A DNA stretch of 64,000 nt. Source: Cohaesibacter gelatinilyticus (GTDB lineage: Bacteria > Pseudomonadota > Alphaproteobacteria > Rhizobiales > Cohaesibacteraceae). Shown in pieces: positions 46,766-64,000 of this stretch. The stretch is from contig NZ_OBEL01000005.1 of assembly GCF_900215605.1 (NCBI RefSeq), forward strand, positions 124,001 through 188,000. The letters run 5' to 3'. The notes under the pieces were generated by a model. It was not told the origin of the DNA. It made no database searches and saw only the letters and a list, made by a program, of their open reading frames with translations. Positions within the stretch are counted from its first letter, which is position 1. Each line of letters starts with the position of its first letter. Made by a program: the position numbers and the translations under genes.

Positions 46766-48361
46766 CTAAGGCTGTTTCAAGATAAGCTCACTAGCTTTCT
46801 CTCCAATCATGATTGCCGGTGCATTCGTATTGCCGGAAACAATTTCTGGCATGATCGAACAATCGGCTACCCGCAATCCCTCAATTCCATGCACCCGCAA
46901 GTTCGCATCAACGACTGCATCAGCACTCTGCCCCATTTTGCAGGTGCCTGTGGGATGATAAATTGAGGCTGTGTTGCTGCGCACCCAGTCCAGTGTTGCG
47001 TCAAAATCATCCATCGGCAAATCTGAGTTAGGTCTAAACTCTTCCGAGATCTTTGATGAGAGTGGCTTGTGACGGGCGATGCTGCGGGCGATATTCACCC
47101 CAGCCACGGCAGTACGACAGTCGGTTTCCGTAGACAGGTAATTTGGAATGATCTTGGGATAGATATTCGGATCACCGGAAACAAGGCGGATTTCGCCTTT
47201 GCTCTCTGGACGCAATTGGCAGACTGACATGGTAAACGCAGAGAAAGCGTCTGCGCCCTTGCCTGGATTTTCTGCCGAAAGAGGCTGAACATGGAACTGG
47301 ATATCGGGGGTTTCCAGTCCCTCATGGGTTCTCATGAAGCCCGTTGCAAGACTGGCAGCCATGGTCATTGGGCCAGACCGGAACAGGGCATATTTCAAAC
47401 CGATTTTTGCCTGGCCAAATAGAGTGCGGACCTCATCATTCAGGGTTGGTTCATTGCATTTGTAGACAAGACGCGCCTGCAAGTGGTCCTGCAGATTCTT
47501 GCCAACACCATAAAGATCCTTCTTGACCTCGATACCATGGTCTGCAAGTTGAGCGGCCTCTCCGATTCCCGACATCATCAGAATTTGCGGTGAATTGATG
47601 GAGCCGCCAGACAAAATGATTTCACGACGTGCTGCGATACGCTTAGTGTCACCCGAACGATCTTTATATAGGACCGCGACCGCACGCCCCTCCTGAATAT
47701 CCACCTTTTGCACCATTGCATGGGTGATGATTTTGAGGTTCTCACGTTTTCTCACCGGGTTTAGATAGGCAACTGCGGAACTACAGCGGCGGCCATTTTT
47801 GGCAGTGAGCTGGAAAAAACCAACACCCTCTTGAGAGGCACCATTGTAATCGGAGTTAAAAGGATAGCCTGCAGCCTGCGCCGCAGCGACCCAAGCATCA
47901 GTGATCGGACGTTGAATACGCATGTTGGAAACCGCAAGCGGGCCTGTGTCTCCATGATATTCATCACCACCACGCTCGTTATTCTCGGACCGTTTGAAAA
48001 GCGGCAGTATATCTTCCCAGCTCCAGCCCACATTGCCCATCTGGCGCCAGCGATCATAATCCTGTGGTTGACCGCGCACATACAAAAGACCATTCAATGA
48101 AGAGGAGCCACCCAACACCTTGCCACGGGGCCATTCAATGGAGCGACCATTGAGACCTGGATCGGGCTCTGTCTTGTAGCACCAATCAACGGAAGGGTTG
48201 TGTATCGTTTTGAAATAACCGACCGGGATATGGATCCAAGGGTTGAGATCACGCCCGCCTGCCTCCAGTAACACCACATTATTATTAGGGTTTTCACTTA
48301 ACCGGTTCGCAAGAACACATCCTGATGACCCTGCTCCAACTATGACAAAATCTGCTTCCAC
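46766..48361 (-). CDS. iseJ: GMC-family FAD dehydrogenase, probable isethionate dehydrogenase
   Basis: 531 residues, choline-dehydrogenase-like. The FAD motif is VIVGAGSSGCVLANRLS; GMC signatures are PRGKVLGGSSSLNGLLYVRG and SGGSINSPQILMMSGIG; the catalytic His-Asn pair sits in YHPTGTCKMG and NTNAPAIMIGEK. By family it oxidises an alcohol. It is divergent from a TRAP transporter followed by an IclR regulator, the gene content published for isethionate degradation (IseJ, IseKLM, IseR), with xsc 13 kb away. That makes isethionate to sulfoacetaldehyde the best guess; choline or another alcohol is possible. Start GTG 48361: GGAGG is 7 nt upstream, whereas the TTG at 48367 is only 1 nt from it. 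Confidence 0.8.
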   Translation of the reverse strand: MEADFVIVGAGSSGCVLANRLSENPNNNVVLLEAGGRDLNPWIHIPVGYFKTIHNPSVDWCYKTEPDPGLNGRSIEWPRGKVLGGSSSLNGLLYVRGQPQDYDRWRQMGNVGWSWEDILPLFKRSENNERGGDEYHGDTGPLAVSNMRIQRPITDAWVAAAQAAGYPFNSDYNGASQEGVGFFQLTAKNGRRCSSAVAYLNPVRKRENLKIITHAMVQKVDIQEGRAVAVLYKDRSGDTKRIAARREIILSGGSINSPQILMMSGIGEAAQLADHGIEVKKDLYGVGKNLQDHLQARLVYKCNEPTLNDEVRTLFGQAKIGLKYALFRSGPMTMAASLATGFMRTHEGLETPDIQFHVQPLSAENPGKGADAFSAFTMSVCQLRPESKGEIRLVSGDPNIYPKIIPNYLSTETDCRTAVAGVNIARSIARHKPLSSKISEEFRPNSDLPMDDFDATLDWVRSNTASIYHPTGTCKMGQSADAVVDANLRVHGIEGLRVADCSIMPEIVSGNTNAPAIMIGEKASELILKQP

Positions 48362-48415
48362 GACCAATCCTCCGTCTCTACTTCAAAAAAAGTTCTATAC
48401 AATCTGCGAGAAATA

Positions 48416-48423
48416 AGCTAGCT
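48416..48423. promoter_or_regulatory. Short palindrome in the iseJ-iseK divergent region
   Basis: AGCTAGCT with flanking AAATA and ATTTT gives an imperfect 18-bp symmetry near the middle of the 108-bp region between the dehydrogenase gene and the TRAP operon. It is a possible IclR-type operator; weak evidence. Confidence 0.3.
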
Positions 48424-48469
48424 ATTTTTGATACAAAACGTCTCAATAAATGACTCAAGGGAGGAAGCC

Positions 48470-49702
48470 ATGAGTATTACAGGCAAATTTAGCCGTATAT
48501 CGCGGAGGGATCTGTTCAGGGTTGCAGGAGCTTACGGGATGAGTTCCACGCTGCTTGCAGCAGGTAGCTTTGGCGGGGCAATGAGCCTTGCCAATCTCGC
48601 AACAGCAGCGGAATCAACCTATAAAAAACGATATTCCAAGCCTGCCAAACACACTCTGAAGTTCGGCGCATCTGGCTTTAACGCACGCAACCTTCTGATC
48701 GAACGAGCCGGAGCCCTGGAATTTGCACGCGACCTGGAAGCCCGCACAGACGGCGAGATCAGAATTGAGTTCATCGGCGACAACCAGATTTGCGGACAGT
48801 TGAGCTGTGTTGAGAAAACCCAGCAGGGCATTGTCGATATCTATGCAGCGTCAACACAGAATTCAGCTGGCGGTGCCCCTTACCTGAACGTGCTGGATTA
48901 CGCCTTCATGTTCCCGGGCCGTGCCTCACAATACCACTTCCTCTATCATCCAAAGAGCCAGCAAATCCTGCGTGATCCACTGGAAAAACGCCACGGCCTG
49001 AAATTCCTGTTCAGCCATTGTGAACTGCGCGGCATCCAGTTGGGCCTGAAATATAAAGACAAGCCAACCATCACCAAGCTGGAACAGTTATTTGGCACCA
49101 AGAATCGCGTGACCGGAACCCAGCTGGGCCGGATTGCCATGAAGGCATTGAACCTGAACCCGGTCCCGGTTGCCTGGGAAGAAACCCTTGATGGTTTGAA
49201 ACAGGGCCTGATCGATGGTGCGGAAACCTGGGCGTCAGCAGTAGCCTATGCCAATATGTCGCCAGTGGTCAGCCAGTCGGTCGATCTGAAATTCTTCTGT
49301 GGTACCGAACATACTTCGATGTCAGCCAAAGTCTTTGACAGCCTTGAAGGCTATTTGCAGGATGCGGTGATGGAAAGCGCATATTGGGCCCAGGCCCATG
49401 TGCAGGCAGCAAATGAAGCTGCTCTGGTCAAAACTGTCGGTTTCTCTGACCCGCAACTACCAGGCACCATGTTCGTCGAAAATGACGTGCGTCCCGCCTT
49501 CTTGCCGGACAGCGAAATCCGCATGGCAGAGGAAATGTGTTCGCCTGAATTCCAGCCACAATTATGGGAGCAATGGCGCGACCGTCTCAACAAATGGGCT
49601 GGTGGCATCGATACCTATCAGGAAATCTATAACATCGCGCGCGAAGTTGACAAAGACATGAAGCCGGAAAATGTAGAACCGCGCCGCTGGTGGAAGGCCT
49701 GA
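48470..49702 (+). CDS. iseK: TRAP transporter substrate-binding protein (DctP family), Tat-exported
   Basis: 410 residues. The N-terminus has a twin-arginine signal (SRRDLFRVAGAYG, hydrophobic region to about residue 45), so it is exported folded, which is unusual since most DctP proteins use Sec. The mature part is a DctP domain with LKQGLIDGAETWASAVAYAN near the binding site. It captures an organic anion in the periplasm, probably isethionate, judged by the neighbouring GMC dehydrogenase and IclR genes. ATG 48470 follows GGGAGGAAG. A GC-rich hairpin separates it from the membrane subunit genes. Confidence 0.8.
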   Translation: MSITGKFSRISRRDLFRVAGAYGMSSTLLAAGSFGGAMSLANLATAAESTYKKRYSKPAKHTLKFGASGFNARNLLIERAGALEFARDLEARTDGEIRIEFIGDNQICGQLSCVEKTQQGIVDIYAASTQNSAGGAPYLNVLDYAFMFPGRASQYHFLYHPKSQQILRDPLEKRHGLKFLFSHCELRGIQLGLKYKDKPTITKLEQLFGTKNRVTGTQLGRIAMKALNLNPVPVAWEETLDGLKQGLIDGAETWASAVAYANMSPVVSQSVDLKFFCGTEHTSMSAKVFDSLEGYLQDAVMESAYWAQAHVQAANEAALVKTVGFSDPQLPGTMFVENDVRPAFLPDSEIRMAEEMCSPEFQPQLWEQWRDRLNKWAGGIDTYQEIYNIAREVDKDMKPENVEPRRWWKA

Positions 49703-49837
49703 TCAGGGCTTGTGTGCCAGAATGAAGCTCTGGAAAATCAAAACAGATTTCACATTCCGGCGCGCTTTGAAAAAAATAGGCAAACAGCAACTCACATCAC
49801 TCAAGAACCAATAGAATTGCTTTAAGCCACAAAGATC

Positions 49838-49869
49838 GGCCCCCGACGCAAGCTTATGCGCCGGGGGCC
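49838..49869 (+). other. GC-rich intercistronic hairpin (iseK-iseL)
   Basis: Arms GGCCCCCGACGCA and TGCGCCGGGGGCC pair over 13 positions with one A-C mismatch, loop AGCTTA. No T-run follows, so it is more likely an mRNA stabiliser or processing site that keeps binding protein in excess over permease. Confidence 0.75.
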
Positions 49870-49912: not shown

Positions 49913-50581
49913 ATGACGCTCTGGTCTGATATCGGTGCGATTCTCAGTGCATTTGCTTCACAAGACAGTTGGGAAATTCGAAATGCTCTGGAAAGTAATG
50001 CTGCCTGGGTGTTGGGCACCATTGCAGCCGCTCTTAGCGGTTTTCTTGTGATGTTCATCTATCGGCTGGCGCCGCTCCTGGACCGTCATCTGGAACGGAC
50101 CATCATGGTATGGAGCTATCTGGCAATCGCCATGATTATCTTTTGGGGTGTGATTGATCGTTTCGTCTTTAAGAACCAGGAACCCTGGTCCACCACCATC
50201 CCGCCTTTGCTATTCATGATCATGGCCTGGTTCGGGGCGGCTTTTAACGTTCGACTACGCACACATCTGAGTTTCTCCGAGTTCCGTTCCCGAATGCCGC
50301 GCTGGGCGCAAATGAGTTGTCTCACACTGGATGCAATATTGTGGTTCATTTTTGCAGTGATTGTTTTTGTCACCACCACCCGGCTCACTGCCTTGTCGGC
50401 CTCCAACTTCCAGATCGTGCTTGGCACCGACAGCGTGCTGCAATGGTGGTTCCTGATCACCGCACCTCTATCCTTTATCCTGATGATCGCCCGTGTATTC
50501 GAAAACCTGTTCGATGATATTCGAAATTTCCGAAGCGGCGAACCGTTGATCAAACAGGCTGTAATCGGAGGAGATGTATAA
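49913..50581 (+). CDS. iseL: TRAP transporter small permease subunit (DctQ family)
   Basis: 222 residues with four main membrane helices (about 32-55, 63-85, 95-112, 140-160) plus a further hydrophobic stretch near 180-200. It is larger than typical DctQ and carries a charged N-terminus. It partners the DctM subunit. GGGAGG lies 6 nt before the ATG. Its TAA overlaps the ATG of the next gene (TAATG). Confidence 0.8.
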   Translation: MTLWSDIGAILSAFASQDSWEIRNALESNAAWVLGTIAAALSGFLVMFIYRLAPLLDRHLERTIMVWSYLAIAMIIFWGVIDRFVFKNQEPWSTTIPPLLFMIMAWFGAAFNVRLRTHLSFSEFRSRMPRWAQMSCLTLDAILWFIFAVIVFVTTTRLTALSASNFQIVLGTDSVLQWWFLITAPLSFILMIARVFENLFDDIRNFRSGEPLIKQAVIGGDV

Positions 50582-51939
50582 TGGCTGATGGAACCTGGAT
50601 TACGTTGATTTCACTTGGGGTCTCTTTGCTGTTCATGCTGGGCGTGCCAGTTCTGCTTGTGATCGGATATTGGGTGATCGGATGTTCCTTCGTGTTGGGT
50701 CTGACACTCGATAATATGGGTGCGGAGCTTTTGAACGTCTTCAACAAGGGCTTTGCACTTTTGGCGATGCCTCTCTTCATCCTGACAGGTGATCTGATCA
50801 ATCAATCAGGCATTGCCCGGCGACTATCGGACTTTGCCTATGCTTGTCTTGGATGGATGCGGGGCGGTCTGGCCATGGCATCGCTTGGTGCCTGCGGACT
50901 GTTTGCGGCAATCTCGGGATCGAACTCCGCCACCACGGCCACCATCGGTTCCATGCTACATCCGGAAATGGTCAAGGGTGGCTATGACGAACGCTTTTCT
51001 GCTGCGACAGCCGCCGCGGGTGGTACAGTTGGTATCATCATTCCGCCATCAATCATCTTCATTGTTTATGGCTTCCTGATGAACCTGCCGGTCTCGGAAT
51101 TGTTTGTCGCCGGTATTATCCCAGGTGCCATGATGGTCATCGGCATGCAGCTCGCCTGTTGGATCATTTGCACACGAAACGGTTGGGGTTATTTGATCTC
51201 ACTACGACTGAACCGGGTCCTGAAAACCGCCTTTGGGGCCTGGCTTGGCTTCTTTGCGATCGGTCTTGTCCTGTGGGGTATATATACTGGCAAATTCTCC
51301 CCCACCGAAGCGGCAGGAGTGACGGTTGGTTTTTGTGTGATTGCAGGTGTTCTGTCCTGGTTGGTGACCAAGATGACAGGCATACGCAGTTTCAAAAGCT
51401 GGGAAGAAAAGTCTTTTGCTGAAATGCTTCTGGTTGAGGGCTTCACGATCCCCCAGATCCCTTCAATTGTGGTGCGTTCGGCTCAGATTACCGGTATTCT
51501 GGCACCGTTGATCGCCATTTCTGTGGTCATGCAGCAAATCCTGTCACTATTGGGTGCCCAGCAGGCCGTCGGGGATTTTGTGACATCAATGGGCGGCTAT
51601 TATGCCGTTCTGTTCACTTCCATGGTCATCGTATTCTTCTCCGGCATGGTGCTGGAAAGCCTGCCGGTCACCATCATTCTGGCTCCAATCTTGGCCCCGA
51701 TTGCTGCTTCGGTCGGCATAGATCCTATCCATTTCTCGGTGATCTTTCTGGTTGGCGCCTCCATTGGCTTTATCACGCCTCCCTACGGGCTCAATCTATA
51801 TGTCGCATCTGGAGTAACAGGTGTTCCATATTTCAGATTACTTCGTTATACCGTACCTTATCTTGCGGCCCTGATTGGGGTGTGGTTACTGGTATCCCTT
51901 GTTCCCGACCTCGCCTTGATGTTGCTGCCCAACAAATAG
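50581..51939 (+). CDS. iseM: TRAP transporter large permease subunit (DctM family)
   Basis: 452 residues, about 12 membrane helices, Na+-driven elevator-type permease. DctM signatures seen are FAAISGSNSATTATIGSMLH, GTVGIIIPPSIIFIVYGF and FITPPYGLNLYVASG. Translationally coupled to the small subunit gene. An IclR regulator gene follows 13 bp downstream on the same strand. The substrate is inferred as isethionate from gene content; another C2-C4 acid or sulfonate is possible. Confidence 0.87.
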   Translation: MADGTWITLISLGVSLLFMLGVPVLLVIGYWVIGCSFVLGLTLDNMGAELLNVFNKGFALLAMPLFILTGDLINQSGIARRLSDFAYACLGWMRGGLAMASLGACGLFAAISGSNSATTATIGSMLHPEMVKGGYDERFSAATAAAGGTVGIIIPPSIIFIVYGFLMNLPVSELFVAGIIPGAMMVIGMQLACWIICTRNGWGYLISLRLNRVLKTAFGAWLGFFAIGLVLWGIYTGKFSPTEAAGVTVGFCVIAGVLSWLVTKMTGIRSFKSWEEKSFAEMLLVEGFTIPQIPSIVVRSAQITGILAPLIAISVVMQQILSLLGAQQAVGDFVTSMGGYYAVLFTSMVIVFFSGMVLESLPVTIILAPILAPIAASVGIDPIHFSVIFLVGASIGFITPPYGLNLYVASGVTGVPYFRLLRYTVPYLAALIGVWLLVSLVPDLALMLLPNK

Positions 51940-51952: not shown

Positions 51953-52729
51953 ATGGTAGAGGATGGTCTGTCAGACAAAAAAGAGGGGCAAATCCCCACC
52001 AACCTACGTCTTTTGATACTCGTTGAAGAAGTCGTCAGGCGCGGTGTGGCGGTAAAACCCTCTGAGATGATCGAGGCAATGGGCCTCCCCAAGCCAACCG
52101 TTCATCGTCTGATGCAAACCGCCGAAGCTGAAGGCTTTCTGCAACGTGATCTGGATGCCCGGGCTTATGGCCCGGGTCCCCGGCTGAGAAAACTGGCTCT
52201 GAATACGATGTCTTCAGAGCATCTGCGCACTGCGCGTCTCAGTATCCTGAAGGGCATTGCCGAAGATCTGGGAGAGACCTGCAATTTGGCCACGCCTGAT
52301 CGGGAAGGCATGACTTACCTCGATCGCGTGGAAACCAAATGGCCATTGCGCATTCAGCTACCAATTGGTACCCGGGTCCCATTCCATTGTACGGCCAGCG
52401 GAAAGATGTATCTCTCGACACTCAAAGCCAGCGCACAGGAAGCAATATTGCGTGCTCAACCGCTTGAAGCGGCCACCAACCAGACCTGCATCGACGCAGA
52501 TGCCCTCGGTTCAGAACTGGAGGCCATCGCTAGCCGTGGATATTCTACCGATGACGAGGAATTCATTACCGGTATGGTAGCCGTCGCAGTTCCGGTTTGG
52601 GATGCTCACCAACGATTGCTTGCAACACTCTCGGTCCATGCTCCGGTTCAACGACACAGTTTGAAGGATCTGACAGAGTTCCTCCCCTCATTGCAGCAAG
52701 GCGCGGCAGAATTGTCAAAACTGACTTGA
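51953..52729 (+). CDS. iseR: IclR-family transcriptional regulator
   Basis: 258 residues. N-terminal winged HTH (about 18-75: VKPSEMIEAMGLPKPTVHRL) and a C-terminal IclR effector domain (about 95-255: DLGETCNLATPDREGMTYLDR, FHCTASGKMYLS). It is 13 bp after the large permease gene and probably co-transcribed, regulating the TRAP operon and the divergent dehydrogenase gene. IclR-type IseR is the regulator reported in isethionate clusters. Its ribosome-binding site is weak, as often for low-level regulators. Confidence 0.82.
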   Translation: MVEDGLSDKKEGQIPTNLRLLILVEEVVRRGVAVKPSEMIEAMGLPKPTVHRLMQTAEAEGFLQRDLDARAYGPGPRLRKLALNTMSSEHLRTARLSILKGIAEDLGETCNLATPDREGMTYLDRVETKWPLRIQLPIGTRVPFHCTASGKMYLSTLKASAQEAILRAQPLEAATNQTCIDADALGSELEAIASRGYSTDDEEFITGMVAVAVPVWDAHQRLLATLSVHAPVQRHSLKDLTEFLPSLQQGAAELSKLT

Positions 52730-53195: not shown

Positions 53196-54716
53196 TCAGT
53201 ACACTACTGACCCTTCAGTTGTTTTGCTGTTTTTATTTTTAATTTCACTCAGAACATCTTGAATTTTCGCCACACCATCTTCAATTTTATCCAATGCAAT
53301 ACTGGAATATCCCAGTCGGAAATAAGGGCATGGACTTGGAGGAGTAGAAAAGAAGGGATGACCTGGTTCAATCAGGACACCATGTGCCTCAAGTCTTTGA
53401 GCAAAGATCTTGCTATCCAGAAAATCTGGTCCTTTGATCCAAAAACTGGTTCCTCCATGCTGACTTTTACCTACCACTTGCAAATCTGTTTTGATCAAAG
53501 CTGCGCTCAATGCTTCGCTACGTTCACGCATGGCTTCGCGCATCTTGACGATGAGGGCATCATAATATCCCTGAGCCAGAAAATAGGCTGTGGTTCGCTG
53601 CATGTGCCCTGGAGGGTGGCGCAGCATCATTGTGCGCATTGTGCGTGCCTGACGGATGACTGGTTCGGGCGCAACGATATATCCAAGTCGAAGTCCTGGA
53701 AAAATTGACTTGGAAAAGCTACCCACGTAAAGCACGCGACCAGATCGGTCCAATGATTTCAGGGCCGGACTGGGAGCTTGCAGGAAGCTGAGCTCGAACT
53801 CATAATCATCCTCCACAACAACGAAATCGTCTTTCTCCGCCAGATCCAACAGTTTCCGCCGTCGATCCATCGGCATGGTTACGCCAGTGGGGACGTGGTG
53901 AGACGGTGTGACAAACACACAATTGGTTTCTGGCGGAATGCAGGATGGATCCAGACCTTGCGTGTCAATTTGCAACCCCTTGGTGGGGACATCAGCAAAG
54001 CGCAGCATTTCCGGAACATCTGGATAGCCCGGCTCCTCATATATGAAAAGCTTCCGGTTATGTTTGAGGATATCGATGATGATCCAAAGAGCATTTTGCG
54101 CGCCCATCGTAATCAAAACCTGCTCCTTTGTGGCCTGAATTCCACGACGGGGAAGCGTGCGGTTACAGATATAGTCAACCAGCATGGGATCATCTTCACT
54201 GGCCCAGTCCCCGGCTAGCAGGTCAAACTCCTTGGCTCCCAAGGCTCGTCTGGCGCAATCTCGCCAAGCCGTATGATTAAACAAAGACCTATCCATTTGC
54301 CCATACAAAAATGGGTATGGATAGGTACCCCAGTCCCGTCTCTTAACGATTGTTCTGAGCCGCACGTGATCTTGTCTGAGCCGTTTTGACCACTGCAACT
54401 CATCGATTTCCTGCCCCTCCTGATCGGATTTTACGCGTCGGCGCGGCGCATTTGGCGATACGGCATAGCCCGATCTGGACATGGGGATCAAATAATTTTG
54501 AGCGACCAGCTCATTGTAAGCCAGCGTCACCGTCAGCCGTGAAATACCCAAAAATTTGGCCAGTGTCCGACTGGAAGGAAGCCACGTACCAGCAGGTATA
54601 TGATTTTGAAGTATAAGGGAAACCACCGAAGTGATCAGCTGTGCTTGCAGTGGAATCGTAGCCTTTTTGTCGATGAAAAACAGGTCCGGTGGAATGCGAT
54701 TTTTTTTATTGGACAT
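53196..54716 (-). CDS. tauR: MocR/GntR-type regulator with aminotransferase domain, TauR-like
   Basis: 506 residues. GntR winged HTH (about 20-90: LPSSRTLAKFLGISRLTVTLAYNEL, with the long family motif) joined to a fold-type I aminotransferase-like domain; the PLP lysine is in GSFSKSIFPGLRLGY, and the Asp of VVEDDYEFEL precedes it. TauR of Rhodobacter capsulatus is a MocR protein activating taurine genes. This one is divergent from a TRAP operon, and a CTGGACTTAA box lies in between, as reported for TauR. ATG 54716 follows CGGGGAAAC. Confidence 0.85.
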   Translation of the reverse strand: MSNKKNRIPPDLFFIDKKATIPLQAQLITSVVSLILQNHIPAGTWLPSSRTLAKFLGISRLTVTLAYNELVAQNYLIPMSRSGYAVSPNAPRRRVKSDQEGQEIDELQWSKRLRQDHVRLRTIVKRRDWGTYPYPFLYGQMDRSLFNHTAWRDCARRALGAKEFDLLAGDWASEDDPMLVDYICNRTLPRRGIQATKEQVLITMGAQNALWIIIDILKHNRKLFIYEEPGYPDVPEMLRFADVPTKGLQIDTQGLDPSCIPPETNCVFVTPSHHVPTGVTMPMDRRRKLLDLAEKDDFVVVEDDYEFELSFLQAPSPALKSLDRSGRVLYVGSFSKSIFPGLRLGYIVAPEPVIRQARTMRTMMLRHPPGHMQRTTAYFLAQGYYDALIVKMREAMRERSEALSAALIKTDLQVVGKSQHGGTSFWIKGPDFLDSKIFAQRLEAHGVLIEPGHPFFSTPPSPCPYFRLGYSSIALDKIEDGVAKIQDVLSEIKNKNSKTTEGSVVY

Positions 54717-54741: not shown

Positions 54742-54773
54742 CTGGACTTAAATGAGATTTTAACTGGATATAT
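54742..54773. promoter_or_regulatory. Candidate TauR direct-repeat operator
   Basis: CTGGACTTAA (54742-54751) is a perfect match to the CTGGACYTAA repeat that I recall for TauR; a second, degenerate CTGGATATAT begins 22 bp later (54764-54773), about two helical turns away. It lies between tauR and tauK, in direct repeat as expected for MocR regulators. Confidence 0.65.
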
Positions 54774-55936: not shown

Positions 55937-55972
55937 ATCCCTTTGTCTCATGAATGGGATAGGAGCCGACTG

Positions 55973-56548
55973 ATGACCCATTTTCTCAAATTCTGTGACC
56001 GTTTGGAAAGTTATATCTGTCGCTTTCTGCTCGTTTGCTTCGTCTCTCTTCTCTTCACTCAAGTTGTGTCTCGTCAAATATTTGGAACATCGATCACCTG
56101 GATTGAAGAATTATCAGTCTTCATGTTTGTCTGGTTCGTCTATTTTGGAGCCAGTTACGCCGCCCGAATTTCAGCTCATAACCGCGTTTCATTTCATTTT
56201 CGCTGGTTGCCAGCAAAGGTCGGAGTTTGGCTGGAAGCGTTTGCCGATCTCATCTGGGTGAGCTTCAATATCTACTTTGTCTATCTGGCCTACGACTTCA
56301 TCTTCTTCCGGATGAACAAGTTTTGGAAAGCACAAACGTTGGGTGTCGAGCTGAAATACATCTATCTGGTGCTCCCAATAGCTTTCGCACTGATGACCAT
56401 ACGCATTCTACAAGTGAATTATCTCAAGCTCGTCAAGGGCGTGGACATCAAAGACCCCGACAAGATCGATTTGCCGCTTGAGGATGAGCTGAATGATGTC
56501 GATGGCACATCAGCCACAAACAACACCAATAACGGAGGAAAGGCATAA
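55973..56548 (+). CDS. tauL: TRAP transporter small permease subunit (DctQ), probable taurine
   Basis: 191 residues, four membrane helices (about 20-40, 50-70, 90-112, 130-150) and a hydrophilic C-terminal tail rich in Asp/Asn. The DctQ motif region reads RQIFGTSITWIEELSVFMFVW. The ATG at 55973 is supported by AGGAG 7 nt upstream. Its TAA overlaps the tauM ATG (TAATG). Confidence 0.82.
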   Translation: MTHFLKFCDRLESYICRFLLVCFVSLLFTQVVSRQIFGTSITWIEELSVFMFVWFVYFGASYAARISAHNRVSFHFRWLPAKVGVWLEAFADLIWVSFNIYFVYLAYDFIFFRMNKFWKAQTLGVELKYIYLVLPIAFALMTIRILQVNYLKLVKGVDIKDPDKIDLPLEDELNDVDGTSATNNTNNGGKA

Positions 56549-57888
56549 TGGAGACCGCAATTGTCTATGTCCTGTTTGGCTCTTTTCTCGGATTGTTGCT
56601 GATTGGTGCCCCCATCACGGTTGCACTGGGTGTCGCATCGCTCATAACGACCTTCTATCTGGAAGAAAACCCCGTTAAGTTTGTCCAGATTGCTTTCACT
56701 TCTGTGGGATCCTTTCCGCTGATGGCATTGCCCGCCTTTATCCTGGCTGGGGCCTTGATGGAAGCAGCTGGCTTGTCTCGTCGCCTTATCAATGTAGCGG
56801 AGAGTTTTGCTGGTCCCTTTACAGGGGGTATCGCTGCCTCGACTGTTGTGGCGTGCCTGTTCTTTGGTGCTATTTCCGGCTCTGGTCCTGCGACAACAGC
56901 TGCCGTTGGCATGCTCATGATCCCCGCCATGATCAAACGCAACTACTCCCCTGGCTACGCGTCATCGCTGACGGCCGCTGCAGGTGGTCTTGGTATTGTT
57001 ATTCCCCCTTCTATTCCGATGGTTATTTTCGGAATTTCCGCCCTTGGCATGATTCCGCCTCCAGCTGCAGTTGAGAAGTTTGGCACATTCCAGTCCGTCT
57101 CAATTTCAAAGCTGTTCATCGCGGGCTTTGTTCCTGCCTTCATCATGGCGACCTGCTTGTTGGTTATGAATTATCTTCTATGCCGCAAGCATGGTTACAA
57201 GGGCACCAGTTCTGCCATGGATTTTGGGCATATCTTCCAAGCAATCCGTGAGGGCTTCTGGGCTCTGATGGCTCCGCTCGTCATTCTCGGCGGAATCTAT
57301 TCCGGTTTCTTCACGCCGACCGAAGCGGCAATTGTAGCCATCTTCTTCACACTATTTGTCGGCGCATTCATCTATCGCGAACTGGATTGGAAAGCGGTCA
57401 GTTCTTCACTGGAAACAACAACCTGGTTGTCCGGGCGGGTGCTCTTGATCCTGTTCACCGCAACTTTGTTTGGTCGCATCCTGGTGGAGAACCAGATCCC
57501 GGCCATCATTGCAGATGGCATGCTGTCACTGACCGAGAATGTCTATTTCATCTGGATCATGATCATAGCCTTCCTGTTGTTTGTCGGTATGTTCATGGAA
57601 ACTCTGGCCACGATCCTGATCCTGGTGCCGGTGATGTTACCAGTCGCATATAGCGTTGGTATCGACCCAATCCATTTCGGTGTGGTGATGATCTGCTCCC
57701 TGTCAATCGGGTTCCAGACTCCACCTTTGGGAGAAAATCTTTTCATCGCATCGGGCATCTCAAATGTCTCGATCGAGGAAATATCCATCAAGGCTCTGCC
57801 ATTCGCTGTGGTCAATATCATCGCAGTGTTGCTGATCGCCTTCTTCCCTGAACTGTCCCTGTGGCTCCCACGTCTGATGGGCTATTGA
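56548..57888 (+). CDS. tauM: TRAP transporter large permease subunit (DctM), probable taurine
   Basis: 446 residues with about 12 membrane helices. DctM signatures: FFGAISGSGPATTAAVGMLM, GGLGIVIPPSIPMVIFG, and FQTPPLGENLFIASG. Coupled to tauL. A universal stress protein gene follows 13 bp downstream; UspA-type partners of TRAP systems (for example TeaD with the ectoine TRAP transporter TeaABC) are known to modulate transport. Confidence 0.87.
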   Translation: METAIVYVLFGSFLGLLLIGAPITVALGVASLITTFYLEENPVKFVQIAFTSVGSFPLMALPAFILAGALMEAAGLSRRLINVAESFAGPFTGGIAASTVVACLFFGAISGSGPATTAAVGMLMIPAMIKRNYSPGYASSLTAAAGGLGIVIPPSIPMVIFGISALGMIPPPAAVEKFGTFQSVSISKLFIAGFVPAFIMATCLLVMNYLLCRKHGYKGTSSAMDFGHIFQAIREGFWALMAPLVILGGIYSGFFTPTEAAIVAIFFTLFVGAFIYRELDWKAVSSSLETTTWLSGRVLLILFTATLFGRILVENQIPAIIADGMLSLTENVYFIWIMIIAFLLFVGMFMETLATILILVPVMLPVAYSVGIDPIHFGVVMICSLSIGFQTPPLGENLFIASGISNVSIEEISIKALPFAVVNIIAVLLIAFFPELSLWLPRLMGY

Positions 57889-57901: not shown

Positions 57902-58396
57902 ATGATTAGAGAAATCAACCGCATACTCTATGCAACCGACCTTACCGACAATGCAGCCTATGCCTTTGAATATGCTGCCGGTTTGGCAAAATCTCTGGAT
58001 GCTGAAATCCATGTCATTCATGTGGTCGAAGCTCTGAGCGATGATCAACGGGTAACCCTGACATTGTTCATCCAGAATGAAAAAGCCCGTGAAGAAGCCT
58101 TGCGACGGCGGGTCGATACGGCAACGGAGCTTCTTCATGAGCGACAGGACAAATTTTGGGAGTCGCTTGATGAGACAGAACAGGTCATCCGCGACAAGGT
58201 CGCGTCAGTTCGAGTCTTGGAGGGCTTTCCAGCTGAATCCATTCTGCATGAAGCGGAAGCCCTGGATTGCGACATGATCCTGATCGGAGCGCATGCTCAT
58301 GGCTTCAGCCATACCTTTCTTGGCTCGATTGCCAAGCGGGTTCTACGCCGTTCCACCATTCCCACCTTTGTGGTGCCTTTCAAAGACGAACTCTGA
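57902..58396 (+). CDS. Universal stress protein (UspA family) of the TRAP operon
   Basis: 164 residues, Rossmann-like UspA fold. N-terminus RILYATDLTDNAAYAFEYAA with the ATP-proximal Asp, and a C-terminal nucleotide-binding stretch GAHAHGFSHTFLGSIAKRVL in the family pattern G-x2-G-x9-G-S/T (the first Gly pair is spread, with an extra His). Probably ATP-binding and cytoplasmic. It is 13 bp after tauM and 17 bp before the SnoaL-like gene, so it belongs to the operon. Usp genes are reported in alphaproteobacterial taurine clusters and may tune the TRAP transporter. Confidence 0.85.
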   Translation: MIREINRILYATDLTDNAAYAFEYAAGLAKSLDAEIHVIHVVEALSDDQRVTLTLFIQNEKAREEALRRRVDTATELLHERQDKFWESLDETEQVIRDKVASVRVLEGFPAESILHEAEALDCDMILIGAHAHGFSHTFLGSIAKRVLRRSTIPTFVVPFKDEL

Positions 58397-58413
58397 CAAT
58401 TGGAGTAATGAGA

Positions 58414-58800
58414 ATGTCAAACACACTTACTGCAGAAGATCTTGCAGCAACTTTTGATGCCTTCAACCAGCATGATGTTGATGCTGTCATGAAGGTTTTT
58501 GCTGACGATGCAGTCTTTTACACCGTTGGTGGTGCAGAGGTTTACGGAACCAAGGTCGAAGGCAAAGACGCTATCGCAGCAGCCTTCAGTGCGGTATGGG
58601 CTGGAATGAAGGATGCTCATTGGGACCATCATAGCCATTTTGTGCATGGAGACCGGGCTGTGTCCGAATGGACCTTCACCGGCACCAATGCCCAAGGGCA
58701 GCGTGTCGAAGCACAGGGTGCAGATCTCTTCACCGTGCGTGATGGCAAAATCATCGTCAAACAAGCATTCCGCAAAGATCGGCCTCTACAAGCCGGTTGA
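58414..58800 (+). CDS. tauX: SnoaL/NTF2-like protein, probable taurine dehydrogenase small subunit
   Basis: 128 residues, NTF2-like cone fold (TFDAFNQHDVDAVMKVFADD, FYTVGGAEVYG, GADLFTVRDGKI). As a lone gene it would be a SnoaL-type protein of unknown function; its place directly upstream of a DadA-like FAD protein in a tau operon matches TauX. The ATG at 58414 is 8 nt after GGAG, a better spacing than the ATG at 58408. A 9-bp hairpin lies between it and the next gene. Confidence 0.75.
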   Translation: MSNTLTAEDLAATFDAFNQHDVDAVMKVFADDAVFYTVGGAEVYGTKVEGKDAIAAAFSAVWAGMKDAHWDHHSHFVHGDRAVSEWTFTGTNAQGQRVEAQGADLFTVRDGKIIVKQAFRKDRPLQAG

Positions 58801-58914: not shown

Positions 58915-60312
58915 ATGGATCAGAACAAGATAAAGACAGCTCGTGATCAAGAACAATATGATCCGCTCTTTGATCCGCTCACCAATAAGGGGCCGGGATG
59001 CAATCAGGCCTATGCCCCTACTTACTGGATTGATACCGCAGGACAACCGCCAGAGGACGATGGGCCGGTCTCTTGCGATCTGGATGTGGAAGTTGCGGTC
59101 ATTGGCTCAGGATATACCGGCCTGAGCTGCGCGCTGCATCTGGCAAAGGACCATGGTATAGATGTCCATGTGCTAGAGGCCAATCAGGTAGCATGGGGTT
59201 GCTCTGTTCGAAATGGCGGGCAGGCTCAGATCTCGTCCGGGCGATTGAAGCGATCCGAATGGATTGCTCGTTGGGACCTGGATACAGCGAAAGCCTTACA
59301 TCGAGAGGTCAGTGAAGCTTTTGATCTCTTCCGCTCTTTGATCAAGGACCATGAGATTGATTGTAATCCGCAAGATGGTGGTCACTATTATGTGGCGCAT
59401 CGTCAATGGATGATGCCAAAGCTGGAAAAAGAAGCCGCACTTCTCAATGACAGCTTTTCCTATGGCGCGAAAATACTCTCAGCTGAGACCTATCGCAACG
59501 AAATAGCCAACGACCACGAGGCACAAGGTGCCATGTGGGAGCCGGACGGCGTGGCCATTCATGCTGCCAAATATGCATTTGGTCTTATGGAAGCTGCTCG
59601 CAACGCAGGGGCAAAAATCCATACCGCCAGTCCGGTCACCCATTGGGAAACAAAGCACGGCAAACACTATCTGCACACGCCTGGCGGTATTGTAAGAGCC
59701 CGTAAGGTATGCGTCGCAACTTCTGCTTACATTCCACGCAATTTACATCGCAAAACCAAAGATCGACTGATGCCGGTATTGTCCAACTCCGTTGTGACAC
59801 GCGTCCTGACGGACGATGAGTTGGCTGCATGTGGCATCAAGGTCACCTGTCCGCTTACCGATACCCGTGTTCTACGCCATTACTTCCGATTGTTGCCAGA
59901 CAATCGGATTCAGATCGGATCGCGCAGTTCCATCACCGGATCTGATGCTGACAATCCCAAACATCTGGCAGCTCTGTGTGAAGGATTGGCTCGCAAGTTC
60001 CCCGTACTACGGGACGTGAAACTGGATTATTCTTGGTGGGGATGGGTGGATGTCAGCCACGACATGATGCCGCGCATCACTCAGCCTGATCTGCAAGAAC
60101 AGATGTTCTACGCTATGGGATATGGAGGCAATGGTGTCATGTATTCAGCCATGGCCGGAAAGCGAATGGCAGATCTTGCGATGGGCGTTCCGACCCCGGA
60201 CCTACCTATTTGCGGATCTGAACTGCCTCATGAAGGCATTTTGACCCCATTCCGTCGCCTCGGTCAAAGATGGTTATACCAGTGGTATCATTATCGCGAT
60301 GAGCGTCGCTGA
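58915..60312 (+). CDS. tauY: FAD-dependent amine oxidoreductase, probable taurine dehydrogenase large subunit
   Basis: 465 residues, DadA/glycine-oxidase-like. After a ~55-residue N-terminal extension (PGCNQAYAPTYW) comes the FAD motif VIGSGYTGLSCALHLA. Later segments are WGCSVRNGGQAQISSG, LPDNRIQIGSRSS and WWGWVDVSHDMMPRI. TauY deaminates taurine to sulfoacetaldehyde, giving electrons to the respiratory chain. The assignment rests on strong resemblance and on context (tauR, tauKLM, usp, tauX, xsc). A gamma-glutamylputrescine oxidase-like function is the main alternative. AAGGA precedes the ATG. Confidence 0.82.
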   Translation: MDQNKIKTARDQEQYDPLFDPLTNKGPGCNQAYAPTYWIDTAGQPPEDDGPVSCDLDVEVAVIGSGYTGLSCALHLAKDHGIDVHVLEANQVAWGCSVRNGGQAQISSGRLKRSEWIARWDLDTAKALHREVSEAFDLFRSLIKDHEIDCNPQDGGHYYVAHRQWMMPKLEKEAALLNDSFSYGAKILSAETYRNEIANDHEAQGAMWEPDGVAIHAAKYAFGLMEAARNAGAKIHTASPVTHWETKHGKHYLHTPGGIVRARKVCVATSAYIPRNLHRKTKDRLMPVLSNSVVTRVLTDDELAACGIKVTCPLTDTRVLRHYFRLLPDNRIQIGSRSSITGSDADNPKHLAALCEGLARKFPVLRDVKLDYSWWGWVDVSHDMMPRITQPDLQEQMFYAMGYGGNGVMYSAMAGKRMADLAMGVPTPDLPICGSELPHEGILTPFRRLGQRWLYQWYHYRDERR

Positions 60313-60413: not shown

Positions 60414-60450
60414 AAAGAGCTTGAATGGCGGTGATCCATTTGAGCTCTTT
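60414..60450. terminator. Bidirectional terminator-like hairpin
   Basis: A 15-bp stem (AAAGAGCTTGAATGG / CCATTTGAGCTCTTT, two G-U pairs) with a 7-nt loop between convergent tauY and the LacI-type gene. Short T-rich stretches follow on both sides. Confidence 0.7.
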
Positions 60451-60491: not shown

Positions 60492-61517
60492 TTATGGTGC
60501 TGTGTGAGTTGATCCGCGAACGACCAAGGACACATCAAGCTTGGATCGCATGATGCTGGTGACATTTTGTTCTGCTATGGAAATTGCCAGGTGATGCATG
60601 GCTTGTCGCCCGATATGGCGGGCGGGTATGCGAACTGTGGTTAAGCCCGGCTCCAGATCGGCAGATCCAGGGAAGTCACCAATCCCCACGATCGACAATT
60701 CTTTTGGCACATCCAATTTCAAGCGTTGGGCGGCGAAAAGAGCAGATTTGGCAATAAGATCATTGCCGCAAATCAGGGCTGTTGGCAGGTTATCGCGAGA
60801 GAGCAAGGACAGGCAGACCTGCTTGGCCTGCGAGACATCATAAAGTGCTTCCACGGCCCATTCTTCAGATGCTTGCAGACCAGCATCCTTGAGGGCAGCC
60901 ACCGCCCCAGCATTACGGGCACGGGCGCGGTCATTTTCTTCTGTCGGCGGCATGGCGAGACCGAATTTGGTATGGCCGAGATCAATCAAATGCTTGGCAG
61001 CCAGATAGCCTGCTTCAAAATTGTCGACACCGACACAGGAAAGGCGCGATTTGTCATTGAAATTCCACATGGCGATGGATGGAATATTTTGCTGCTCGAC
61101 CAACACATAGGTCGCGTCCAGATGATCAAGTCCAATAAGAGCAATTCCATCGACTCGATGTTCGAGCAGTTTGCGCAGAACCGACTCTTCCTTTTTGAGA
61201 TTGAAGCCATGGGTGGCGATGAGAATGGTGAAACCCTTGTCGTCTGCTACTTCGGTGAAAGCCTGAATCAATTCGGAAAAAATGGCATTGGTCACCACCG
61301 GCACCACCAGTCCGATCGTGCCGCTACGCTTGCCGTGAATGGTCTGAGCAGCACGATTGCGAATGTATCCAAGATTGCGCACAGCGTCTTCAATGCGCTT
61401 CAGGGTAGTGGGTTTGACCAGATCGGGATGATTGAAGCTCCTCGAAACCGTAGCTGGTGAAACACCAGCCTGTTGAGCAACTGCAAAAATATCGATCTTA
61501 TCTTTTTGTTTTTTCAT
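60492..61517 (-). CDS. LacI-family transcriptional regulator divergent from xsc
   Basis: 341 residues. N-terminal LacI HTH (about 8-28: DIFAVAQQAGVSPATVSRSF) and hinge helix, then a periplasmic-binding-like effector/dimer domain (about 62-335: TIGLVVPVVTNAIFSELIQA, DGIALIGLD, SIVGIGDFPGSADLEPGLTT). LacI proteins usually sense sugars; here the divergent target is xsc, so an intermediate of C2-sulfonate breakdown is a possible effector. That is inference. A LacI-like operator lies in the 175-bp gap. No such regulator is part of the taurine gene sets I know. Confidence 0.9.
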   Translation of the reverse strand: MKKQKDKIDIFAVAQQAGVSPATVSRSFNHPDLVKPTTLKRIEDAVRNLGYIRNRAAQTIHGKRSGTIGLVVPVVTNAIFSELIQAFTEVADDKGFTILIATHGFNLKKEESVLRKLLEHRVDGIALIGLDHLDATYVLVEQQNIPSIAMWNFNDKSRLSCVGVDNFEAGYLAAKHLIDLGHTKFGLAMPPTEENDRARARNAGAVAALKDAGLQASEEWAVEALYDVSQAKQVCLSLLSRDNLPTALICGNDLIAKSALFAAQRLKLDVPKELSIVGIGDFPGSADLEPGLTTVRIPARHIGRQAMHHLAISIAEQNVTSIMRSKLDVSLVVRGSTHTAP

Positions 61518-61544: not shown

Positions 61545-61558
61545 TGAAAACGTTTGCA
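61545..61558. promoter_or_regulatory. Candidate LacI-type operator between lacI-like gene and xsc
   Basis: TGAAAACGTTTGCA contains the perfect palindrome AAACGTTT (61548-61555) with a central CG, the usual LacI/GalR operator layout. It is 28 bp from the regulator start and about 135 bp from xsc. Confidence 0.6.
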
Positions 61559-61692: not shown

Positions 61693-63477
61693 ATGGTAAA
61701 GATGACAACCGAAGAGGCTTTCATCAAAGTCTTGCAAGCACACGGCATTGAGCATTCCTTTGGCATCATCGGATCTGCCATGATGCCGATTTCAGATCTG
61801 TTCCCTGCTGCAGGGATCAAGTTCTGGGATTGCGCTCATGAATGTAACGCAGGCATGATTGCAGATGGTTACACTCGTTCTACCGGTAAAATGTCCATGG
61901 TCGTTGCTCAGAACGGTCCTGGCATTACCAGCTTGGTGACCCCGATCAAGACCGCTTACTGGAACCACACTCCACTTCTGCTGGTAACCCCGCAGGCTGC
62001 AAACAAGACCATCGGTCAGGGTGGTTTCCAGGAAGTGGAACAGATGGCCCTGTTTGAAGACATGGTTGCCTATCAGGAAGAAGTTCGCGACGCCAGCCGC
62101 ATGGCTGAAGTTCTGAACCGTGTGATCCTGCAGGCAAAGCGTGCTTCTGCGCCTGCCCAGATTAATATTCCACGCGATTTCTGGACCCAGGTCATCGATA
62201 TAGATCTGCCTCAGATTGTTGAATTCGAGCGTCCTGGCGGCGGTGAAGAAGCCATCAATCGTGCAGCAGAGCTGCTGTCCAATGCCAAATTCCCTGTTAT
62301 CCTCAATGGTGCTGGCGTTGTGATTGGCGGCGCGATCGATGAATCTCGTCAATTGGCAGAGCGTTTGACTGCTCCTGTGTGCTGTGGCTATCAGCACAAT
62401 GATGCCTTCCCCGGCACACATCCACTGCATGCCGGTCCTCTGGGCTATAACGGCTCCAAGGCAGGTATGGAACTGATTTCCAAAGCAGACGTGGTTCTTG
62501 CTCTTGGCACGCGTCTGAACCCATTCTCCACCCTGCCAGGTTATGGTATTGATTATTGGCCAAAAGATGCGGCGATCATTCAGGTGGATATCAATCCGGA
62601 CCGTATCGGCCTGACCAAACCTGTTAGCGTTGGTATCGTTGGTGACGCAAAGAAAGTGGCGACTTCCATTCTTGAGCGTTTGTCTTCTACCGCAGGCGAT
62701 CATGATCGTGACGGCCGCAAAGCTCTGATCTCACAGACCAAATCTGCATGGGCTCAAGCCCTGACCTCCATGGATCATGAAGATGACGATCCAGGCACCA
62801 CGTGGAATGAGCGCGCTCGCGGCCGTGAGCCGGAAAAGATGTCTCCTCGTATGGCTTGGCGGGCAATCTCTGCGGCTTTGCCGAAAGATGCGATCATCAC
62901 ATCTGATATCGGCAACAACTGTGCAATTGGCAATGCTTATCCGAGCTTCGAAGAGGGCCGCAAATACCTTGCTCCTGGTCTATTCGGCCCTTGTGGTTAT
63001 GGTCTGCCAGCAATCTGTGGCGCAAAGATAGGTCGTCCGGATATACCAGTGGTTGGTTTTGCTGGTGACGGTGCTTTCGGCATCTCGATGAACGAGATGG
63101 TATCCGTTGGTCGTGATGACTGGCCGCCTATCACGATGGTGATCTTCCGCAACTATCAGTGGGGCGCTGAAAAACGCAACACCACCTTGTGGTTCGATGA
63201 CAATTTTGTCGGAACCGAACTCGACACCAATGTGTCCTATGCGGGCATTGCAAAAGCATGTGGTCTGGAAGGTGTTGCTGTCTTCTCCATGCAGGAGCTG
63301 ACCGAAGCACTGTCCAAGGCTGTAGATGACCAGATGAATAATGGCAAAACCACTTTCATCGAAGTCATGCTCAATCAGGAACTGGGCGAGCCATTCCGCC
63401 GCGATGCTATGAAAAAGCCTGTTTCTGTGGCCGGCGTCGACATCAACGACATGGTTCTGCAAAAAGGCGCTCTCTAA
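61693..63477 (+). CDS. xsc: Sulfoacetaldehyde acetyltransferase
   Basis: 594 residues, ThDP enzyme. Converts sulfoacetaldehyde and phosphate to acetyl phosphate and sulfite, the central C-S bond cleavage step of taurine and isethionate breakdown. The catalytic Glu is in DCAHECNAGM (Glu50); the ThDP/Mg motif is GFAGDGAFGISMNE...FRN; the Xsc-typical segment QVEVEQ-like GGFQEVEQMALFEDMV is present. Length is as usual. The start ATG 61693 follows GGAGG by ~10 nt. The usual pta gene does not follow directly; instead a structured spacer and a YeiH-type exporter gene follow. Confidence 0.94.
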   Translation: MVKMTTEEAFIKVLQAHGIEHSFGIIGSAMMPISDLFPAAGIKFWDCAHECNAGMIADGYTRSTGKMSMVVAQNGPGITSLVTPIKTAYWNHTPLLLVTPQAANKTIGQGGFQEVEQMALFEDMVAYQEEVRDASRMAEVLNRVILQAKRASAPAQINIPRDFWTQVIDIDLPQIVEFERPGGGEEAINRAAELLSNAKFPVILNGAGVVIGGAIDESRQLAERLTAPVCCGYQHNDAFPGTHPLHAGPLGYNGSKAGMELISKADVVLALGTRLNPFSTLPGYGIDYWPKDAAIIQVDINPDRIGLTKPVSVGIVGDAKKVATSILERLSSTAGDHDRDGRKALISQTKSAWAQALTSMDHEDDDPGTTWNERARGREPEKMSPRMAWRAISAALPKDAIITSDIGNNCAIGNAYPSFEEGRKYLAPGLFGPCGYGLPAICGAKIGRPDIPVVGFAGDGAFGISMNEMVSVGRDDWPPITMVIFRNYQWGAEKRNTTLWFDDNFVGTELDTNVSYAGIAKACGLEGVAVFSMQELTEALSKAVDDQMNNGKTTFIEVMLNQELGEPFRRDAMKKPVSVAGVDINDMVLQKGAL

Positions 63478-63497
63478 TCGCAAGCCTTATGCGCGAA

Positions 63498-63528
63498 GGG
63501 TTGGGCAGTTTATCCATCGGCCCAACCC
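63498..63528 (+). terminator. Hairpin after xsc
   Basis: A 9-bp perfect stem GGGTTGGGC / GCCCAACCC with a 13-nt loop, 20 nt after the xsc stop. No T-run; possible terminator or 3'-end stabiliser. Confidence 0.55.
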
Positions 63529-63543
63529 ATCCGACCAGGATAT

Positions 63544-63606
63544 GGAATGCCAGGCATTGACAAGGAACCGTTTGCGTTCCTCCAGACCTTGTCCGTCTGG
63601 CATTCC
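63544..63606 (+). ncRNA. Long two-stem structured element between xsc and exporter gene
   Basis: Outer stem GGAATGCCAG (63544-63553) / CTGGCATTCC (63597-63606), 10 bp, enclosing GACAAGG (63559) / CCTTGTC (63587), 7 bp, with an apical loop that can form a further GGAAC/GTTCC pairing. It could be a leader structure for the exporter gene, a terminator or a palindromic repeat; its class is not recognised. Confidence 0.45.
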
Positions 63607-63608
63607 GA

Positions 63609-63650
63609 GCATAGCCGGATTTTCCCCCAATCTCTCACATTCGGCTATGC
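63609..63650 (+). other. Third hairpin upstream of exporter gene
   Basis: 9-bp arms GCATAGCCG / CGGCTATGC with a 24-nt loop containing CCCCC. It ends 93 bp before the exporter ATG. Confidence 0.45.
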
Positions 63651-63742
63651 ATCAATTTTTTCGAAATTTCCGCGGGGTGATTGGTCGATAGCTATTAATA
63701 GCTGACTCTTTTCGAAACATTTTGCCATATCAGAGGTTTCAA

Positions 63743-64000
63743 ATGGGCATTTCATTGACACAGACCTTGCAATCCAAACTTCCAGAATTGCGCTTGGCTG
63801 TTCCCGGCTTTTTGATCTGTCTGGTAGTTGCCGCGACCGCACAATTCCTGTCTGACCATTATGGCGCCCCAGCCATGTTGATGGCATTGCTCCTTGGCAT
63901 TGCGCTGAATTTTCTGGGAGAGGAAGGCCGAGCGGTCAAAGGCATTGCACTGACAGCTAAAACTGTTCTGCGTATTGGAGTTGCTCTGCTCGGCGCCAGA
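63743..64000 (+). CDS. YeiH-family (putative sulfate/sulfite exporter) protein, 3' end outside window
   Basis: 86 residues visible, frame open to the edge. The N-terminus shows two membrane helices and the family segment GAPAMLMALLLGIALNF, followed by AKTVLRIGVALLGAR, which is the start of the YeiH/COG2855 core. The family (putative sulfate exporter) includes proteins in sulfonate clusters thought to expel the sulfite or sulfate released by Xsc. AGAGG lies before the ATG at 63743. Its place after xsc supports a sulfite-export role. Confidence 0.8.
   Translation, partial: MGISLTQTLQSKLPELRLAVPGFLICLVVAATAQFLSDHYGAPAMLMALLLGIALNFLGEEGRAVKGIALTAKTVLRIGVALLGAR

Follow-up and report, generated by a model that had tools for sequence, protein, structure and literature searches.

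A predicted isethionate and taurine degradation island of Cohaesibacter gelatinilyticus with a shared xsc trunk beside a LacI-family regulator gene

Gene content and layout of the island

We analyzed a 64,000-nucleotide stretch of the 5.2-Mb Cohaesibacter gelatinilyticus genome (bases 124001-188000 of contig NZ_OBEL01000005.1; hereafter the window), in which two catabolic modules, predicted to degrade isethionate (ise) and taurine (tau), stand next to a single gene for sulfoacetaldehyde acetyltransferase (xsc). The island spans 46766-65830, i.e. it runs beyond the window end at 64000, and the adjoining contig stretch (L009) was used to cover the positions past that point. Three blocks make up the island (Table 1). 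In the first, iseJ on the minus strand is divergent from iseK-iseL-iseM-iseR; in the second, tauR on the minus strand is divergent from tauK-tauL-tauM-usp-tauX-tauY; in the third, a lacI gene on the minus strand is divergent from xsc-tauZ-pta, with tauZ encoding a YeiH-type exporter. Island proteins were assigned to families using NCBIfam and Pfam models. Starts for IseK, TauR, TauK, TauX and Xsc were chosen from the sequence and from homologues, the mechanical open reading frame (ORF) starts being longer, and the start codon of IseJ is uncertain.

An initial annotation of this DNA had described ise and tau modules, each with a tripartite ATP-independent periplasmic (TRAP) transporter, converging on one xsc. 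Every family that it named corresponds to an ORF in the position and order it gave and scores to the expected models, so that the content and order of the convergence stand. It is at the junction that the picture changed: xsc does not lie directly behind tauY, as it does in Cereibacter sphaeroides 2.4.1, and the lacI gene between them is an addition to the original gene list. The xsc gene is single in the whole genome, with one locus over the Xsc model cut-off and next-best matches of 295 bits or less. An exporter of the YeiH type follows xsc as stated there and crosses the window edge, although its product matches the YeiH model TIGR00698 below cut-off, and the search for pta past position 64000 found the gene. 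Taken together, we consider it probable that the window carries an isethionate and taurine degradation island with a shared xsc trunk; the sequence directly shows which genes are present, their homology and synteny, the operator-like sites and that Xsc is single, and substrates, flux, acquisition and regulation are inferred.

Table 1. Features of the predicted island, numbered from the first base of the window
Feature	Position	Strand	Basis
iseJ, GMC-family isethionate dehydrogenase (predicted)	46766-48367	-	Homology, tree, synteny
Divergent iseJ/iseK gap with conserved stretch TTTTTGATACRAAACGTCTCAATAA, candidate IseR site (putative function)	48368-48469		Gap comparison
iseK, TRAP substrate-binding protein	48470-49702	+	Up to 97% identity to Leisingera protein in same position
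iseL, TRAP small permease	49913-50581	+	Synteny, 50-91% identity to homologues
iseM, TRAP large permease (DctM family)	50581-51939	+	Family models, homologues
iseR, IclR-family regulator	51953-52729	+	Family models, homologues
tauR, MocR-family regulator	53196-54716	-	50% identity to C. sphaeroides 2.4.1 gene in same position
TauR-type direct repeats CTGGACTTAA (54742) and CTGGATATAT (54764), spacing 22	54742-54773	+	Consensus match
tauK, TRAP substrate-binding protein	54868-55878	+	72% identity to C. sphaeroides
tauL, TRAP small permease	55943-56548	+	56% identity to C. sphaeroides
tauM, TRAP large permease	56548-57888	+	72% identity to C. sphaeroides, 79% to Leisingera
Usp-family protein	57902-58396	+	PF00582; same position in Ruegeria sp. 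THAF33 and G214
tauX, SnoaL/NTF2-like taurine dehydrogenase subunit (predicted)	58408-58800	+	60% identity to C. sphaeroides, 77-78% to THAF33/G214
tauY, DAO-family flavin adenine dinucleotide (FAD) taurine dehydrogenase subunit (predicted)	58915-60312	+	66% identity to C. sphaeroides 2.4.1, synteny
Terminator-like hairpin between convergent tauY and lacI ends	60414-60450		15-pair stem
LacI-family regulator, SauR-like (relative of sauS-linked regulators)	60492-61517	-	Homologues
LacI-type operator TGAAAACGTTTGCA between lacI and xsc	61545-61558		Putative site, shared across loci
xsc, sulfoacetaldehyde acetyltransferase, shared node	61693-63477	+	TIGR03457, 942.7 bits (cut-off 676.4)
tauZ, YeiH-type exporter	63722-64792 (in window to 64000)	+	PF03601, well over cut-off
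pta	64820-65830 (contig stretch past window)		Family models

The isethionate module

Relatives of iseJ were taken as the best 80 loci from a scan of GTDB representative genomes, in which at least 80 exist. They are 80-89% identical, with Leisingera nearest, and their record titles name roseobacters or other Rhodobacteraceae, apart from two titled Alphaproteobacteria only. All five ise genes occur in the divergent layout at 75 of these loci; the exceptions are L072, L084, L103, L111 and L118, some of these stretches being short. The stretch TTTTTGATACRAAACGTCTCAATAA recurs, with variation, in the window and in six other iseJ/iseK gaps inspected. The iseL product has no NCBIfam match of its own and owes its name to its place and homologues, and the N-terminus of IseK carries what we take to be a twin-arginine-like motif. 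In Ruegeria pomeroyi DSS-3, SPO2355-2359 are annotated iseR, iseM, iseL, iseK and iseJ (PMC4334477), and by that annotation table, the sole basis for the comparison, the roseobacter cassette is alike in its five genes, families and order. The cassette of the window differs in lying beside tau and xsc and, presumably, outside the Rhodobacterales.

The tree of IseJ held 39 rows, no biochemically tested IseJ among them. The window protein pairs with Leisingera at 100/100 and belongs to a clade of 18 rows (100/100), among them five homologues encoded beside or near xsc. Escherichia coli BetA is placed outside that clade, next to another paralogue from the window genome. The betA equivalog TIGR01810 gives the window protein 524.5 bits against a cut-off of 732.1 (missed by 208 bits) and E. 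coli BetA 1036. The enzyme is thus IseJ-like by phylogeny and context, as the initial annotation had it, and an identity as choline dehydrogenase was rejected on the missed betA cut-off and the placement of BetA. Linkage to xsc also recurs. In the window's own taxonomic order, iseJ homologues of 71-72% identity adjoin xsc in G036, G043 and G059, a 57% homologue does so in G051, and in G056 xsc lies just past iseKLM-iseR on two contigs. A plasmid of Paracoccus sp. TOH carries xsc-iseJ plus a major facilitator superfamily (MFS) gene and an IclR gene.

Several observations weigh against an isethionate function tied to xsc, and some would fit an alternative in which the GMC enzyme and its TRAP transporter serve another substrate (choline, another hydroxyalkanesulfonate or an alcohol) and stand near xsc by chance. 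The window enzyme passes the subfamily model NF002550, named 'choline dehydrogenase' (622 vs 605), a model that the Leisingera homologue of IseJ passes as well. None of the 80 nearest iseJ loci holds xsc in its flanks, the sole Xsc match being a 22% paralogue, and none has a TauX, TauY, TauR, YeiH or Pta match (E 1e-15). The xsc-linked homologues of G051 and G056 (57-59%) fall outside the 18-row clade, in a sister group. IseK is only a distant match to the solved isethionate-binding protein IseP (E 1.4e-9), which is nearer to the TauK of the window (7e-33). In a class-wide sample of 385 genomes (thresholds of E<1e-240 for Xsc and E<1e-245 for iseJ), Xsc was found in 35 genomes and iseJ in four, namely the window genome, G214, G312 and G395; the closest xsc on the contig of iseJ is 99 kb away in G214 and 266 kb away in G312, and G395 has a close iseJ with no xsc over threshold. 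The linkage of ise and xsc therefore recurs but is not general. Against a different substrate stand the betA score and the tree, the recurrence of xsc beside or close to homologues of iseJ, in five genomes of the order as well as on two Paracoccus plasmids, and the mutant growth and drawdown tests that identify isethionate as the substrate of R. pomeroyi iseKLM (PMC10130141). We regard that alternative as very unlikely.

The taurine module

The second block is of the tau type by features other than adjacency to xsc. In line with the TauY-like assignment made earlier for the FAD enzyme, its closest counterpart in C. sphaeroides 2.4.1 occupies the tauY position within a matching gene order (Table 1), and its other matches within the window genome reach at most 32% identity. 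We take C. sphaeroides to be the organism called Rhodobacter sphaeroides in the taurine literature. Rhodobacter sphaeroides is among the bacteria with described taurine utilization in PMC5320631, where a paper on strain 2.4.1 is cited. The same paper gives the TauR repeat consensus as CTGGACYTAA. This exact consensus occurs once in the 64 kb of the window, in the tauR-tauK gap, and is followed 22 bases on by a second box with two mismatches; once as many as two mismatches are tolerated, matches are not in excess of those in shuffled sequence. The 22-bp spacing is also found in C. sphaeroides plasmid pB, P. sediminicola p4 and P. seriniphilus, so that the repeat pair is present in four of six gaps scanned, the window's and three others. 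Two results in these scans count on the other side: the tau gap of G214 has one weak TauR box only, and the LysR-controlled tau gap of Ruegeria showed none.

The MocR protein of the window also passes the PdxR model NF052282 (343.2 vs 320), which speaks against its assignment as TauR and would suit a vitamin B6 regulator unrelated to taurine. The tau-linked MocR proteins of C. sphaeroides 2.4.1, P. sediminicola and P. seriniphilus score above its cut-off as well, and TauR-type repeats lie in the tauR-tauK gap. PdxR identity was rejected, as the model does not discriminate, and we give this explanation almost no credence.

The xsc trunk and its LacI-family neighbor

The distance from tauY to xsc is 1,380 bp and holds a hairpin and the opposing lacI gene. 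In ten other loci with both coordinates (G019, G057, P. seriniphilus, C. sphaeroides, THAF33, P. sediminicola, G214, Limimaricola, Marinovum and P. yeei), the gap is about 12-84 bp, as taken from match or annotation coordinates. The hairpin has z-scores of -2.3 and -3.9 on the two strands and a weak T tail, and the count of terminator-like sites across the region is not above that of shuffles. Read-through of the tau genes and the trunk as one operon despite the opposite-strand lacI, with TauR alone controlling xsc, would agree with the lack of a called sigma-70-like promoter for xsc. The long gap with its opposing gene and hairpin, set against the short gaps elsewhere, makes such an operon improbable.

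In order to place the regulator, it was compared with LacI proteins of 43-56% identity at 15 other loci (L046, L110, L201-L205, L219, L230, L231 and L275-L279). SauS is encoded at 14 of the 15, the exception (L277) being a 4.5-kb contig. SauT was detected in nine and not in L110, L219, L231, L277, L278 or L279; of these, the stretch of L110 starts within sauS. The queries for both proteins came from L201 and L202, which are themselves among the loci compared. Seven SauS proteins were tested, and every one scores above the cut-off of the SauS equivalog model. Two SauT proteins were tested in the same way; their matches are to general CoA-ligase models alone, at scores under the cut-off, and SauT is named from context. 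These sulfoacetate clusters combine LacI, SauS and SauT with a tripartite tricarboxylate or MFS transporter, and SauR itself is, we presume, a LacI-type protein. Clusters of sauST with tripartite tricarboxylate transporters are described for sponge symbionts in PMC12625764. The window has kept the regulator and the operator of such clusters, and xsc takes the position of sauST. Its genome yielded no orthologue of SauS (best match 36%) or of SauT (32%), which is why the LacI is classed here as SauR-like and not as SauR.

When one mismatch is allowed, the operator TGNAAACGTTTNCA lies upstream of lacI in all 16 loci including the window, against a background of two matches in 1.60 Mb (78 iseJ loci). 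Its pattern resembles LacI-family operators in general, and it therefore marks a LacI site rather than a ligand. An alignment of 16 rows, in which a position could be gapped in as many as two, has 23 invariant polar or aromatic residues in the ligand domain, and the window LacI shares them. Such a LacI (E<1e-70) occurs in 8 of the 385 genomes of the class sample, and in five of these eight, including the window genome, xsc lies within about 10 kb; the others are G125, G245, G339 and G417. In G245, G339 and G417 the lacI operator sits in the gap to a divergent YeiH-type gene. The loci L219, L278 and L279, from three genomes of one genus, show this arrangement, have a second copy of the operator past the YeiH-type gene and hold sauS, xsc and pta in the same region. 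The second copy in L219 precedes a run of ORFs on the strand of sauS and xsc, the intervening frames not being typed. Paracoccus sp. TOH also has a LacI homologue beside xsc-iseJ. A search for LacI relatives on viral contigs found none.

Operator-like palindromes were also seen about 100-125 bases upstream of iseJ-xsc in G051 (L174:4996) and of xsc in G025 (L184:10621). No LacI relative was matched in these two stretches, and neither genome has one at E<1e-70.

Proposed route and regulation

The chemistry of the island is known. IseKLM would import isethionate and IseJ would oxidize it to sulfoacetaldehyde, under the control of IseR. TauKLM would import taurine, which TauXY would oxidatively deaminate to sulfoacetaldehyde and ammonium, with TauR acting from the direct repeats upstream of tauK. 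Xsc would then split sulfoacetaldehyde into sulfite and acetyl phosphate, TauZ would export sulfite or sulfate, and Pta would make acetyl-CoA. With the trunk under its own repressor or activator, the LacI protein, either inlet could raise Xsc.

We propose that xsc-tauZ-pta forms a trunk that both routes share and that is regulated separately. Most likely the LacI would make xsc inducible by a metabolite that the two routes have in common (sulfoacetaldehyde or a related compound), and isethionate alone could therefore switch on Xsc. As a tentative account of its origin, a sulfoacetate-type LacI may have been recruited as a dedicated switch of xsc-tauZ-pta, where it would sense a C2-sulfonate intermediate and uncouple xsc from TauR.

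The position of the operator is a difficulty for such a switch. The site coincides with the predicted lacI promoter, which is the best promoter-like site of the region, and may serve lacI autoregulation only; the xsc side lacks a called promoter, as noted above, and the region has no excess of promoter-like sites over shuffled sequence. The gene could accordingly be a leftover of a lost sulfoacetate (sau) module that regulates only itself, with xsc read from an unrelated constitutive or TauR-type promoter. The absence of SauS and SauT orthologues and a broken GMC fragment in the DNA next to the island, a sign of decay nearby, would both suit a remnant. A remnant is harder to reconcile with an intact LacI frame that retains all 23 invariant ligand-domain residues, with an operator in the lacI-xsc gap, or with the operator-like palindromes upstream of xsc in G025 and of iseJ-xsc in G051. 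The operator between lacI and the divergent YeiH gene in L219, L278 and L279, and the second copy before the ORF run in L219, likewise count against a remnant. We consider a leftover lacI somewhat unlikely.

Comparison with related clusters

Plasmid pB of C. sphaeroides 2.4.1 has the same order, with tauR divergent from tauKLM-tauX-tauY-xsc-YeiH-pta. Identities to its genes not listed in Table 1 are 76% for xsc, 66% for the YeiH gene and 54% for pta. The window differs from it by the addition of the Usp gene between tauM and tauX and of the lacI gene between tauY and xsc. Ruegeria sp. THAF33 and G214 share the order KLM-Usp-X-Y-xsc-YeiH, Usp included, and have no LacI gene beside xsc; THAF33 has a LysR gene in place of the MocR gene. 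Their ise modules lie elsewhere, with the iseJ of THAF33 37 kb from xsc.

A combined island is not unique to the window. A plasmid search was run with five island proteins, and the top 20 matches were inspected for four of them. Plasmid p449297 of P. seriniphilus DSM 14827 carries both modules side by side, at 44-77% identity per gene, and on the strength of this precedent the idea of a unique combination of ise and tau was rejected. Its order is xsc-iseJ divergent from iseKLM-iseR, followed by a MocR gene, pta, YeiH, xsc, tauY, tauX and tauMLK. It thus has two xsc genes under one protein accession, one behind iseJ and one behind tauY, whereas the window has a single xsc with a LacI gene. The P. 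seriniphilus cluster is without LacI or Usp; the window has both. In a literature search that left most subscription papers outside, no combined ise and tau island and no LacI at xsc was recognized. What is new is thus the regulatory arrangement at xsc and not the pairing of the two modules, for which there is a precedent.

Isethionate is abundant in nature. Taurine is described as abundant as well (PMC5320631). Both routes end in sulfoacetaldehyde, and the placement of xsc directly behind tauY in the other tau clusters examined raises the question of how Xsc is switched on by isethionate alone, on which the same literature search found nothing. Two arrangements can now be compared, namely two identical xsc copies in P. 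seriniphilus and one xsc with its own regulator and a 14-bp putative operator in the window. If the proposal is correct, the LacI switch would let a single xsc serve both isethionate and taurine, where P. seriniphilus keeps one xsc per module. The comparison also shows where automatic names mislead: the IseJ homologues of P. seriniphilus and Leisingera caerulea carry the label 'choline dehydrogenase', and all three tau-linked MocR proteins tested pass the PdxR model.

Origin and genomic surroundings

The island was probably acquired. Across 17 genomes of the genus, one of them only 64% complete, there is no Xsc at E<1e-150, the best iseJ-like protein reaches 50% identity, and the best tauY-like proteins (among matches at E<1e-40) reach 32%. 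Downstream of pta lies tRNA-Ala(GGC) at 66630-66705. The tRNA-aroA side is kept in all nine genus relatives compared; in these nine, the 1.3 to 15 kb compared on the far side of the tRNA gave no match to any window gene located at 30 kb or later. The DNA past the tRNA differs between most relatives, shared sequence of more than about 100 bases being limited to some pairs. Because one side is conserved and the other differs between most relatives, the island abuts a variable spot. The blocks probably have different histories, since Xsc is 91% identical to a partial gene of the same-family genome G019 and TauY 70% identical to a protein of that contig, while IseK is up to 97% identical to Leisingera. 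Base composition gives no hint of transfer: the island genes have 45-54% G+C, and the 83-kb stretch has 50%. No direct repeat of the tRNA end longer than 13 bases was found elsewhere in the 103 kb scanned, so that both the left boundary and the mechanism of insertion are tentative.

Between pta and tRNA-Ala, a scar at 65831-66629 holds the broken GMC dehydrogenase fragment (42% to IseJ, with no Pfam match) and an open piece of 113 amino acids. The proposal that this second piece is a recombinase tail was dropped, as it has no Pfam, NCBIfam or PHROGs match; six plasmid matches to it fall under hypothetical proteins or lack annotation. Directly before the island, at 44287-46197, the gene for a LysR regulator, which scores 276 bits on the PtrR model and stays under its cut-off, is divergent from a nitronate monooxygenase/FabK-like gene. 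On another contig (L267:5064-8258), a thiamine-diphosphate enzyme matches acetolactate synthase models best, below their cut-offs, and stands beside an acylating aldehyde dehydrogenase that scores 428 on the SauS model (cut-off 600); the pair possibly belongs to an unrelated acyl-CoA route. Farther away in the window, at 1684-3555, iolD of inositol catabolism (901 bits vs a cut-off of 715) lies beside the ATPase gene of a sugar-type ATP-binding cassette transporter.

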